Shown here in pieces: positions 2 through 48,577 of a stretch of 64,000 bases of DNA (position 1 is the stretch's first letter; every line of letters begins with the position of its first letter). A model generated the notes under the pieces. The model was not told the DNA's origin. It searched no databases and saw only the letters and a list, made by a program, of their open reading frames with translations. Source of the DNA: an uncultured Eubacteriales bacterium (GTDB taxonomy: Bacteria; Bacillota; Clostridia; Peptostreptococcales; Anaerovoracaceae). The translations under genes and the position numbers were made by a program. The stretch covers positions 25,634 through 89,633 of the forward strand of contig CADAEH010000009.1 in assembly GCA_902786855.1 (NCBI GenBank), read 5' to 3'.

Positions 2-694
2 GTCGTATGGACCCTGCTGCGCAGCATGCCTTCCTGCCTGGATCTTGAGCCGCTTGGAGCAGAAGAAGGGGGCACAGAGACCAAGTATGCTGCAAAGACT
101 GCTTCCAAAGGACTGTACCTGGCGATGGTCATTGGATTCCTCATCCTGGGTGCAGCGGCCAATAATCTGCACAGCAATCTGTCAGTACTGTATCAGTCTG
201 TTGGATTCGACAGCGCAAAGATCTCAGGTGTAATATCCATGTTCGGCATCAGCCTGGCAATAGGAAAATGTGCATGCGGCCAGCTGTCAGATAAGATAGG
301 CGTTTTCAAGGCGTGTATGATACTCTTCGTAATGTCTGTTATCGGATGCGGCATGTTCTGCCTTGCTCGCAACGGAAGCATGACAATGGCAACAATAGCG
401 GTACTTCTCGTAGGTGCGGGAATGTCAGTAGCCTCTGTTGCAACATCGACATATGCTGTTGATATAGCTACTGAGGAAGATTATCCGAGCGTGGTATCGA
501 GATTCCAGACCATGCAGACAGTCGGAGGTCTGGCCTTCGCGATAATGCCGGGAGTTCTGGCAGATATGACAGGGGACTACATCCTGGCATATGAGATCAT
601 GTTCGCATTCGTTCTCATCAGCGCAATAGTGATACAGGGCGCATACCTTAAGATAAGGAAAGAGCAGGCAGCAGAAACAGAAGCTGCAGCTTAA
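2..694 (+). CDS. MFS transporter, C-terminal part (cut by window edge)
   Basis: The reading frame is open to the left edge, so the N-terminal part lies outside the window; the first ATG at 26 is internal. What is visible is a soluble linker followed by about six hydrophobic segments, matching the C-terminal half of a 12-helix major facilitator. The stretch GQLSDKIG is the typical MFS inter-helix loop motif (G-x3-D-x2-G). It ends in a short charged, Ala/Glu-rich cytoplasmic tail. It should be a secondary transporter in the membrane; the substrate is not readable. The neighbouring reductase genes suggest uptake or export of the compound they act on. A strong terminator follows. Confidence 0.8.
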   Translation, partial: VVWTLLRSMPSCLDLEPLGAEEGGTETKYAAKTASKGLYLAMVIGFLILGAAANNLHSNLSVLYQSVGFDSAKISGVISMFGISLAIGKCACGQLSDKIGVFKACMILFVMSVIGCGMFCLARNGSMTMATIAVLLVGAGMSVASVATSTYAVDIATEEDYPSVVSRFQTMQTVGGLAFAIMPGVLADMTGDYILAYEIMFAFVLISAIVIQGAYLKIRKEQAAETEAAA

Positions 695-42119: not shown

Positions 42120-43157
42120 ATGAAAAAGTACAATGTAGGTGTAATGGGAGCAACAGGTGCAGTAGGTCAGCAGATGATCAAGGTGCTTGCAGAGAGGAAC
42201 TTTCCTGTAGGAGAGCTCAGATGCCTGGCAAGTGAGAGATCAGAAGGAAAGACTCTGAGCACGCCGTTTGGTGACGTAGTCATACAGAGAACTTGTGAGA
42301 CTGCATTCGATGGACTGGATATCGTTCTCGGAGCAAGCGAAAATGATATTGCTGAAGCAATGGCTCCTCATATCAAAGCTGCAGGTGCAGTGTTCGTTGA
42401 CAATTCGTCAGCATTCAGACTGTATGATGATGTTCCGCTGGTAGTGCCTGAGATCAACCCTGAAGATGTTGCATGGCATAATGGAATCATCAGCAATCCT
42501 AACTGCACGACGATCATTTCACTCGTTGCCATCAATGCTATCAATAAACTGTCGAAGATCAAAGCGATCTATGCTTCTTCATATCAGGCAACAAGCGGTG
42601 CAGGAGCAGGCGGACCTATCGAGATGTATGAGCAGTCTGAGAAAGTCCTTGCAGCCAGAGCAGCAGGCGGAGAGGGCAATTCATACGGTGCGGACATCCA
42701 GCCTAAGGTATTCCAGTATCAGATAGCTTATAACGTAATCCCGCAGATCGGCGGATTCGGTGAGAATCTGTACTCATCTGAGGAGATGAAGCTCCAGAAC
42801 GAAGGTCGCAAGATCATGCATCTGCCTGAGCTCAAAGTTTCATGCACATGCGTCAGAGTTCCGGTAGAAAGATCGCATGCTGTATCCATCGATGTGATCA
42901 CAGAAGATAAGCTTGATCTTGATGCTGTAAGAGCAGCTATCGCTGAAGCTCCGGGCTGCAGACTGTATGATGAACCATCAGAAAAGATCTATCCGATGCC
43001 GCTCCTCACATCCAACCAGGATACAGTTTATGTCGGCAGGATCAGAGAAGACCTTGTCAATGATCACGGAATCAATCTGTGGTGCTGCGGCGATCAGGTA
43101 AGAAAGGGTGCTGCTACCAATACAGTGCAGATCGCAGAGCTGCTTCTGGAGAAGTAA
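42120..43157 (+). CDS. asd: Aspartate-semialdehyde dehydrogenase
   Basis: 345 residues. NADP loop MGATGAVGQQM, the catalytic Cys in SNPNCTTI and the later TSGAGAGGPIE match Asd. It reduces aspartyl-phosphate to the semialdehyde, the step after aspartokinase. AAAGGAGG precedes the ATG; two-gene operon with aspartokinase, ended by a strong hairpin. Confidence 0.95.
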   Translation: MKKYNVGVMGATGAVGQQMIKVLAERNFPVGELRCLASERSEGKTLSTPFGDVVIQRTCETAFDGLDIVLGASENDIAEAMAPHIKAAGAVFVDNSSAFRLYDDVPLVVPEINPEDVAWHNGIISNPNCTTIISLVAINAINKLSKIKAIYASSYQATSGAGAGGPIEMYEQSEKVLAARAAGGEGNSYGADIQPKVFQYQIAYNVIPQIGGFGENLYSSEEMKLQNEGRKIMHLPELKVSCTCVRVPVERSHAVSIDVITEDKLDLDAVRAAIAEAPGCRLYDEPSEKIYPMPLLTSNQDTVYVGRIREDLVNDHGINLWCCGDQVRKGAATNTVQIAELLLEK

Positions 43158-43187
43158 TTCCCCGCAACAACTGAAAACGCTTACCAT

Positions 43188-43225
43188 GTACCGCCTTGTT
43201 TTCAAAATACAAGGCGGTACTTAAT
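43188..43225 (+). terminator. Hairpin terminator after asd
   Basis: Perfect 12-bp stem (43188-43199 with 43209-43220), 9-nt loop; the U-tract is short (TTAATT). Confidence 0.72.
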
Positions 43226-43273
43226 TGTGACCGCCTGTTAAGCGTTATGTATTCTTTTAAAACAAAAAAATTC

Positions 43274-43302
43274 TTGATTTTTTGTGCGGATTGCACTAAA
43301 AT
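43274..43302 (+). promoter_or_regulatory. Promoter of the large non-coding RNA
   Basis: TTGATT (43274-43279), exactly 17 nt, TAAAAT (43297-43302); start expected near 43309. Confidence 0.8.
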
Positions 43303-43308
43303 ACAAAC

Positions 43309-43975
43309 AACAACAGAGAACTGATAATAACAAGCCGACAGTACATAAAGATCGAAGGATGCCAGCGCCAGAAAAATCTACAATCAGATAACTCTACGAA
43401 CAGGGCATCAGGAAAGCCGTAAAGATCGTATAATCGCATTACGACAGACAGATCAGAAAGTACACCACAGTGCATATCACTCGGAGAGAGAGTAGTTAGT
43501 GGAAGATAAGACTGGTGAAGAAGTACTCAGTGGAAGAAGTACCGGGGATACGGTGAGGCAAGGCAGGGATGCAGAGCTTACACAGGACGTCAAACCGGGA
43601 AGCAGTACATAGAGGAAAAAAGTAATCGGTCAGGTGAGTACACAGGACGAAGGAAAGACTGAGATGAGAGCGTGGCAGTAGCAAGTAAGATCAGAAGGTT
43701 TTCAGAAGAGGAAAAATAGTCGGCGTCCAGAAAGCGCAGAGCGCGGAAAAGGAGGAACGGACCAATGGGATATTCAAATAGAGAGGTTGATCCGGCATAG
43801 ACTCGCTGCAAAGGAAGCCTGCTTACAGGCATCAGATATGTGAAAAGAGAAAAAGATCAAAACTGACAGACCGGTTGCCGAGTATCAACAGAATAAAAAC
43901 TGAAATTGACACTCACAACTTAATAATATGACTTAAATAGAATGCAACACCCCGCACAGGATGCGGGGTTTTCTA
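43309..43975 (+). ncRNA. Candidate large structured non-coding RNA, about 665 nt
   Basis: Between a good promoter and a strong terminator lie 665 nt with no plus-strand frame of any size. Base use is purine-rich (runs of GA and GGA) unlike both coding DNA and ordinary spacers. Local helices include 43358-43363/43404-43409, 43418-43422/43439-43443, a multi-part stem 43459-43471/43511-43527, 43541-43544/43551-43554, 43734-43737/43741-43744, 43817-43821/43826-43830 and 43787-43792/43855-43860. A perfect 6-bp long-range match joins 43334-43339 to 43719-43724. Direct repeats: AAAGATCG (43347, 43421) and TACACAGGACG (43579, 43639). Size and host fit the giant bacterial RNA classes such as ROOL, but I cannot verify membership. 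It is not RNase P RNA, tmRNA, SRP or 6S RNA by their core sequences. Confidence 0.72.
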
Positions 43976-43976
43976 T
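43947..43976 (+). terminator. Terminator of the large non-coding RNA
   Basis: 7-bp GC stem (43950-43956 with 43962-43968) extended by A-T pairs, 5-nt loop, TTTTCT. Confidence 0.88.
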
Positions 43977-43999
43977 TGTCAGCCGGATAAACACGAATA

Positions 44000-44008
44000 T
44001 GTTATAAT
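44000..44008 (+). promoter_or_regulatory. Extended -10 promoter of the nucleoside phosphorylase gene
   Basis: TGTTATAAT, a consensus -10 box with the TGn extension, about 50 bp before the ATG. No clear -35 box, as is usual for this class. Confidence 0.65.
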
Positions 44009-44056
44009 CAGTATGTAACTGTCAGATCCTTATCCTGAAGAATGTGAGGAAATATT

Positions 44057-44878
44057 ATGGCTGGAGACTTGAGAAAAAAGATAAAAGAAGCGGCGGATTA
44101 TCTGAGAAACGCGGGCGTTAAGGATCCGGAAGCAGGGATCATCCTCGGAACCGGACTGAATAACTATGCTGACCGTATCGAAGATTCGATTATCATCCCG
44201 TATAACGACATTCCCAATATGCATTCCGGCAATGTTGACAGTCACCGCGGGCAGATCATCTACGGCCGCTGCAGAGGCAAAATGGTTATCATACTTGCCG
44301 GCAGATATCACTATTACGAATCCGGGGATATACAGGCTGCAGCTTTTCCGGCGAGAGTGCTTGTCGAGCTGGGCATAAGACGCCTTATCATCACCAATGC
44401 TGCAGGCTGCGTGAACAGAAACTGGAGACCGGGTACTCTGATGCTTATAAAAGATCATATCAATCTTTCCGGCGCCAATCCTTTGATTGGATCTAATCTG
44501 GATGAATACGGACCAAGATTTCCTGATATGACTTATACTTACGATCCAGACCTCAGGGAAAAGATGAAAAAGCGTGCAGCAGAGGAAGGCATAGAGCTTA
44601 ACGAAGGTGTATATACTATGATGAGCGGTCCGACGTTTGAGACTCCGGCGGAAATAAACATGGTCAGGTGCATAGGCGGCGATGCTGTCGGCATGTCAAG
44701 CGTGCCGGAAGCTATCATCGCGAACCATGCGGGAAAAGAGATCATCGGGATCACATTCCTTTCTAATATGGCAGCCGGAGTACTGGATCAGCCGCTTTCA
44801 GGCGAGGAAGTCACCGAGGCGAGCAAGGGTATAGAGCGCATTTTTGCAAAAGCGGTGGATATAGCTGTAGAAATATAG
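44057..44878 (+). CDS. punA: Purine-nucleoside phosphorylase
   Basis: 273 residues of the trimeric PNP class. The phosphate site GIILGTGLNNYA, HRGQIIYG, AGRYHYYE, ITNAAGCVN, and the GPTFETPAE plus DAVGMSSVPE purine-binding segments are all present. It splits inosine, guanosine or their deoxy forms with phosphate in purine salvage. GTGAGGAAA lies before the ATG. It is monocistronic and converges on the helicase-like gene. Confidence 0.95.
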   Translation: MAGDLRKKIKEAADYLRNAGVKDPEAGIILGTGLNNYADRIEDSIIIPYNDIPNMHSGNVDSHRGQIIYGRCRGKMVIILAGRYHYYESGDIQAAAFPARVLVELGIRRLIITNAAGCVNRNWRPGTLMLIKDHINLSGANPLIGSNLDEYGPRFPDMTYTYDPDLREKMKKRAAEEGIELNEGVYTMMSGPTFETPAEINMVRCIGGDAVGMSSVPEAIIANHAGKEIIGITFLSNMAAGVLDQPLSGEEVTEASKGIERIFAKAVDIAVEI

Positions 44879-48483: not shown

Positions 48484-48577
48484 GGGGGTAGATAGGTGCT
48501 GGTGTGCCTCGCGGTCTTCAAAACCGTTTGCAGGGGGTTAGTAGCCTCCCGGGTGGGTTCGATTCCCACATACGCTG
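48484..48577 (+). tRNA. selC: tRNA-Sec, anticodon UCA
   Basis: The body is unmistakable: 6-bp D-stem (48494-48499 with 48504-48509), anticodon stem 48511-48515/48523-48527 with loop CTTCAAA (UCA at 48518-48520), a long extra arm, and a T-arm 48553-48557/48565-48569 with loop TTCGATT. The length, 94-95 nt, is normal for tRNA-Sec. The acceptor stem is odd: GGGGGTAG (48484-48491) pairs only 5 of 8 positions with ATACGCTG (48570-48577). CCA is not encoded. It lies directly before selA and selB, as in many clostridia. Confidence 0.85.

Follow-up and report, generated by a model that had tools for sequence, protein, structure and literature searches.

The gap between asd and punA in the window (the whole 64,000-nt stretch of DNA that was analysed, from an uncultured Eubacteriales bacterium) almost certainly contains a free-standing structured RNA gene. 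The RNA represents a family without a match at gathering score in Rfam 15, and probably a new class, whose conserved part is a 3′ domain of approximately 145 nt with covariation; the most conserved stretch of all is GGAGGA-n-GACCAAUGGGA plus an open reading frame (ORF) downstream of it. The best overall explanation—albeit a tentative one, drawn from sequence comparison—is that the RNA acts in trans and that translating the short ORF it carries serves as its switch.

The asd stop codon ends at position 43157 and the punA ATG is at 44057, with the intervening gap measuring 899 nt, and not approximately 830 bp as given in an earlier note on this DNA. The features assigned to the gene, all on the forward strand, are as follows, with conservation given for the homologous copies described below:

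43274–43302 (+): promoter TTGATT-17-TAAAAT, with nine of 12 consensus matches and a counterpart in 37/37 copies
43307–43316 (+): predicted transcript start, near ACAACAACAG
43334–43339 (+): 5′ strand of helix P0, GCCGAC; 30/30 tested copies keep five or six of the six pairs
43340–43718 (+): variable domain enclosed by P0; AGUAC elements recur within it in the long forms
43719–43724 (+): 3′ strand of helix P0, GTCGGC, with compensating changes at three pairs
43734–43744 (+): hairpin Pa, GCGC-AGA-GCGC, from the window sequence and relatives
43751–43763 (+): Shine–Dalgarno-like element GGAGGAACGGACC; GGAGG in 34/37 copies, and in tandem in the divergent relatives L104 and L106
43765–43800 (+): 11-codon ORF MGYSNREVDPA with a TAG stop; an ORF of 10–11 codons is intact in 37/37 copies
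43786–43796 (+): 5′ strand of helix P1, within codons 8–11 of the ORF; seven of 11 P1 pairs changed on both sides
43806–43809 (+): 5′ strand of helix P2, CTGC, with its partner at 43866–43869; two of four pairs changed on both sides
43817–43830 (+): hairpin P3, GCCTG-CTTA-CAGGC, from the alignment and the window sequence
43866–43869 (+): 3′ strand of helix P2, ACAG; three of the four pairs form in the window copy
43877–43889 (+): 3′ strand of helix P1, GCCG-AGT-ATCAAC, from the alignment
43915–43927 (+): ACAACTTAATAAT element, with similar sequences in relatives (ACAACTGAATA or alike), from inspection of downstream sequences
43949–43976 (+): terminator, consisting of a stem-loop (43949–43969) and a T-rich tail, from a sequence scan and, in relatives, a loose script

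The near-consensus promoter with 17-nt spacing described in the earlier note is present. Consensus alone lends such a site weak support, with six promoter-like sites occurring in the region versus 2.5 expected; among relatives, however, a promoter was found at the matching place in every copy studied (a count made without a shuffle control), by searching up to 900 nt upstream for TTGnnn-16..18-TAnnAT and, in three copies with two candidates, using the nearer one. Its distance upstream from the 3′ domain ranges from 55 to 481 nt. The −10 boxes of the 37 copies read TACAAT (29), TAAAAT (6), or TATAAT (2). The terminator noted earlier was likewise recovered, by a scan that found two stem-loops versus 1.4 expected by chance, and a terminator-like stem lies 3′ of the RNA in 35 of the 37 copies as counted by the loose script, several of whose best stems are a second one farther downstream. 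From the promoter and terminator positions, the RNA varies from approximately 240 to 700 nt across species. A description as a giant RNA fits the long forms alone, given the range of promoter distances among species and the variability of the large 5′ part. The reported purine bias amounts to 66% purines over 43308–43948. Direct repeats—the 11-nt TACACAGGACG at a spacing of 60 nt, and 8-nt repeats—do exist, but the 11-nt repeat is incidental, because neither copy is intact in the three closest relatives.

The RNA gene does not keep a fixed position. It is oriented as asd is in six copies and opposite to it in 22, with asd falling outside the fetched flank (of variable size) in nine, and in L005 and L007, which adjoin the window clade on the tree of cores, asd and punA again flank it but its direction is reversed. 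Given this variation, it is not a leader belonging to a single gene, and the variable orientation to asd favors action in trans. Copies located away from asd (L058, L060, and L062) showed, on inspection, no obvious common theme among their neighbors.

Searching the whole window with Rfam 15 covariance models, a check proposed earlier for 43300–43980, yielded at gathering score only the tRNA-Sec at 48484, and nothing in the asd–punA gap. Relaxing the threshold to E ≤ 10 over 43150–44070 gave 13 matches, none of which came close to its gathering score and which were judged to be chance; ROOL, OLE, and GOLLD, all of which we take to be included in the Rfam 15 library, were not among them. Since there is no match at gathering score, and only sub-threshold ones at E ≤ 10, the RNA is not assigned to ROOL, OLE, or GOLLD. 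The suggestion that it may be ROOL therefore finds no support, ROOL being unlisted at E ≤ 10 and the RNA being undetected in viral contigs by two specific patterns and in phage and plasmid records by blastn. Nor, judging by its neighbors, is the setting that of ROOL- or GOLLD-type phage RNAs: these are metabolic genes, and the nearest tRNA in the window—indeed, the sole one—is that for selenocysteine (48484–48577, forward strand). ARAGORN detected neither tRNA nor tmRNA in the gap, tmRNA (RF00023) had no match in the window, and the tmRNA of this genome was found elsewhere (G000:C21, E 5.3e-70). 6S RNA (RF00013) had no match at the asd–punA RNA; a near-threshold 6S candidate lies at G000:C5 (46.1 bits, cut-off 46.4). 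The portions of the literature covered by our search contained no report of the asd–punA RNA. Overall, the homologues within the genus, the kept promoters, the covarying helices, and the lack of an Rfam match above gathering score bear out the reading of this gap as a structured RNA gene, probably of a new class.

Homologues were found chiefly in the host genus. An initial DNA search of 100 genomes matched 24, namely the window genome, 22 others of the genus, and one of another family; two short matches, L021 of 31 nt in the other family and L024 of 29 nt, were taken to be chance and excluded from all counts. Three genomes (G007, G010, and G036) match over the full length at 78–79% identity, and the remaining genus matches lie within query positions 445–703. 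A covariance model built from 13 sequences, with the window clade and L005 excluded and the structure drawn up by eye, detected 38 copies in 36 of the 48 genus genomes at E ≤ 1e-12; a 37th genome, G035, carries a tandem form (L104). Two genomes each harbor two copies of different subtypes (G008, contigs 5 and 63; G038, contigs 3 and 76). The 37-copy set used throughout leaves out L115 (G038:C76), which is cut by a contig end. No confident copy was detected in 11 members of the genus (G001, G005, G011, G013, G020, G021, G028, G032, G037, G046, and G047), and in the nine of these with asd located, the fetched stretch around asd contained no match at E ≤ 1; the absence may reflect loss, divergence, or incomplete assembly.

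Beyond the genus, a search of 350 family genomes, including the 48 from the genus, gave a best match of E 1.4e-5, and 394 genomes of the order, taken from a larger group and searched with a second model, a best match of 4.3e-7 (L139), which is coding sequence; searches of more than 40 genomes used stricter filters, which weak members can escape. L139 and L108 are, presumably, phosphoglycerate kinase coding sequence, judging from the codons for N-G-P-M-G-V-F-E, and the resemblance of the core GGAACGGACCAATGGGA to these putative coding sequences of other genera is probably due to chance. Four weak matches in other genera (L107, L109, L110, and L111) and one in the host genus (L105) fall, on inspection, within or next to ordinary coding sequence and were discarded; L112 and L113 are further weak matches. 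When 84,980 species, each represented by a single genome, were scanned with a degenerate core pattern, 28 contigs matched, and by their lengths all are contigs already found in the host genus. Their titles read uncultured Clostridiales bacterium, Clostridiales bacterium, or Mogibacterium sp.; 11 titles name goat or sheep gut, and RUG labels denote rumen. Two specific patterns matched no viral contig, and blastn matched neither phage nor plasmid records. Four viral-contig matches to a tandem pattern were set aside, having no R2 match at E ≤ 0.1 and a number at approximately chance level by the author's estimate. The RNA family was found in one gut-bacterial genus and, as a divergent tandem form, in a single species from a second genus of that bacterial family.

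Covariation was examined on these homologues, as had been recommended. As expected of a free-standing structured RNA gene, its helices—P1 to P4 and P0—covary above shuffle and slide controls. In the 37-copy alignment, 87.0% of P1–P4 cells are paired (79.5% in shuffles, at most 48.4% when slid), 15 pairs are changed on both sides (8.7 in shuffles), and the covariation score is 0.262 (0.148 in shuffles), these pair counts leaning towards the model structure because that structure, drawn up by eye, guided the alignment. A weaker measure, further pair types, gave 30 versus 27.0 in shuffles, 39 of 500 of which attained the observed count. Support for a pseudoknot next to P4 is partial, with 74.5% of cells paired and a double change in one of four pairs. 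A plain consensus fold of the first alignment had shown almost no structure (eight pairs), owing to an incorrect MAFFT placement of the 3′ arm for L005 and the window clade; all copies were accordingly realigned to the 13-sequence model. The window strand folds somewhat better than its shuffles (z −2.7, one of 20 as good), which is weak evidence alone.

The strands of P0 are exactly the 6-bp long-range match (43334–43339/43719–43724) pointed out in the earlier note. In the 30 copies whose start lies 75 nt or more from the core, all six pairs form in 26 and five in four, whereas at least five form in 2.9% and six in 0.3% of shuffles; the seven shorter copies lack P0 or are too short for scoring. 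Scoring used the anchors [AG]CCG and CGG[CAT] with the best pair taken, and the control applied nearly the same rule to single-base shuffles. P0 encloses a variable 5′ domain of up to approximately 400 nt, in which AGUAC occurs three to eight times in 11 long forms versus 0.5–1.2 times in shuffles. Upstream of position 4073 in L068, this domain consists of repeated hairpins (identified by eye) around GAACGUAnU...AGnAUACGGgAAGC, which sets it apart from the remaining long forms with their AGUAC repeats. Between P0 and the conserved element, a perfect stem of at least four pairs is found near the position of Pa in 30 of 37 copies, with differing sequences.

The plus strand had been described as devoid of reading frames. 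This is correct for long frames but overlooks the 11-codon ORF behind a Shine–Dalgarno-like element, and the related statement that the gene encodes no protein is doubtful, given that a putatively translated ORF of 10–11 codons is kept in all copies. The 11-codon ORF is present in 32 copies as 20 distinct sequences, 10 ending in TAA and 10 in TAG. Five copies (L056, L064, L070, L071, and L072) carry a 10-codon ORF; each of them is a base shorter ahead of P1, and its shifted frame is closed by TAA or TAG, and the contig-cut sixth copy, L115, reads MGSFKRGLFR and then stops. On the tree of cores, four of the five group together (support 0.83) and L064 lies elsewhere (0.74), these supports being modest; since the 10-codon copies fall in two separate places, at least two frame-shift events are likely. 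Among the 20 distinct in-frame ORFs, pN/pS is 0.95 for codons 2–6 and 1.51 for codons 7–11, noisy values for so few codons, suggesting that the ORF rather than its residues is kept; the second residue is Gly in 36 of 37 copies. The 3′ half of the ORF is also one strand of P1, the 5′ strand, which across copies begins at codon 7 or 8 and ends at codon 11. In sum, the kept short ORF and ribosome-binding site resemble those of a dual-function small RNA, but pN/pS shows no purifying selection on the peptide. Translation of the ORF is judged to be probable.

The GGAGGACRGACC module is tandemly repeated in two divergent relatives: L104, in the host genus on a contig ending within the RNA, and L106, in another genus of the family (G262). 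GGAGGAnRGACC occurs six times in L104 (1150–1611) and five times in L106 (927–1347), with the last of L106 reading AGAGG. An AUG follows only the first and last modules of each, the ORFs being METFRS and MQNRFIREGILR in L104 and MGKFEG and MGNVKEGIRK in L106. Several modules are followed, on inspection, by a small H-type pseudoknot (for example, CAGAU-A-GGCUA-AUCUG-AAACA-UAGCC). A pattern of two adjacent modules was found in two of the 350 family genomes; a second species of the G262 genus (80% complete) matched in flanking sequence only.

In the favored explanation, a ribosome would initiate at the AUG and run to the stop codon just past P1, holding P1 open; without translation, P1 would close and the 3′ domain would fold fully; and the RNA, folded or open, would then act in trans on a partner. 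The peptide itself would not need to matter. That translation serves as the switch is an appreciable possibility, put forward with caution: for the window copy, P1 receives a low pairing prediction (0.14; mean of 0.66 over the 37 copies), and the AUG is often predicted to be partly paired (mean unpaired 0.44), both of which count against it. Close behind the translation-switch explanation ranks that of a purely noncoding RNA, a real though lesser possibility in which GGAGGACRGACCAAUGGGA would bind a protein or the anti-Shine–Dalgarno end of 16S rRNA, with the AUG and stop as by-products. The tandem elements of L104 and L106, only two of which in each have an AUG, and pN/pS near or above 1 are consistent with it. 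Because several tandem modules keep GGAGGAnRGACC but have no AUG, this element could equally serve for binding or for initiation, and it could be a motif that contains an AUG by chance, because conservation is seen at the RNA level too. On the other hand, the stop codon tracks the frame shift in 5/5 copies as well as in L115, and the last modules of L104 and L106 also have an AUG and an ORF, of 12 or 10 codons.

A dual-function RNA with a functional micropeptide of 10–11 residues plus a long structured 5′ region is unlikely, since the constancy of the Shine–Dalgarno-like element with its ORF (37/37) and of the second Gly is set against the pN/pS values and against a C-terminal half entirely altered by frame in five copies. 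A CsrA sponge, as purine richness and GGA motifs might suggest, is hardly tenable: the RNA is purine-rich and has tandem elements, but GGA is not enriched versus shuffles in most long forms and CsrA (PF02599) was found in none of the 48 genus genomes searched, the control being positive in three of 14 known genomes; this candidate was rejected on the latter ground. Neutral spacer or a minus-strand gene is very improbable. There are minus-strand ORFs of 59, 62, and 80 codons, the last of which meets no stop codon across 76 residues of L004, gaps allowed; despite this, the minus-strand gene was rejected, the 80-codon frame having lost its start codon in L002, being frameshifted in L003, and hardly matching in L005, and the promoters and covariation favor the plus strand. 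A further reading, rather speculative and itself doubtful, is a modular RNA of repeated ribosome-binding units (GGAGGACRGACC plus the small pseudoknot), chiefly the last of them translated, that would read or buffer translation-start capacity and refold accordingly. If true, such a modular RNA sensing translation capacity would be a kind of regulator not described in the portions of the literature covered by our search. To our knowledge, no RNA regulator of this modular kind has been described.

These results add a structured RNA family, with no Rfam 15 match at gathering score, to a genus represented here solely by metagenome-assembled genomes, and provide a consensus anatomy of the family that is directly testable. 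If the ORF is translated, this would be an RNA gene, outside any leader, that conserves translation itself rather than the peptide produced. Furthermore, the series of lengths around a constant 3′ domain offers a natural test of how large bacterial RNAs grow.

Among known systems, leader-peptide attenuators use translation of a short ORF to open or close a helix, as translation would here; unlike them, the asd–punA RNA has a terminator and no regulated downstream gene, and varies in position and orientation between species. tmRNA, whose tag ORF has approximately ten codons, is similar in being a structured RNA with pseudoknots and an ORF of about that size, but the tmRNA of this genome is a separate gene. 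CsrB/RsmZ-type sponges share tandem purine-rich elements with the RNA, which differs in that its genus has no detectable CsrA. Like the dual-function small RNAs SgrS and VcdRP, as described in the consulted parts of the literature, the asd–punA RNA is free-standing with a short ORF; unlike in those RNAs, its ORF lies inside a conserved helix and encodes a peptide without purifying selection, and is shorter than that of VcdP, the VcdRP peptide of 29 residues. With ROOL, GOLLD, and OLE it shares a large structured form, a Clostridia-type host, and the lack of a long ORF, but no sequence or structure match, and its core is small and carries an ORF. Formation of homo-oligomeric RNA particles is another trait associated with those three. 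According to the available part of one study, ROOL and GOLLD are phage or prophage RNAs, often near tRNAs, and ROOL env-120, from cow rumen, is 659 nt long (PMC12286853); compared with that description, the asd–punA RNA is chromosomal, has metabolic genes as its neighbors, and went undetected in the viral, phage, and plasmid sets. The same part of that study describes a conserved 3′ region and a less conserved 5′ region in GOLLD (PMC12286853), an arrangement paralleled by the conserved 3′ and variable 5′ regions of the asd–punA RNA.
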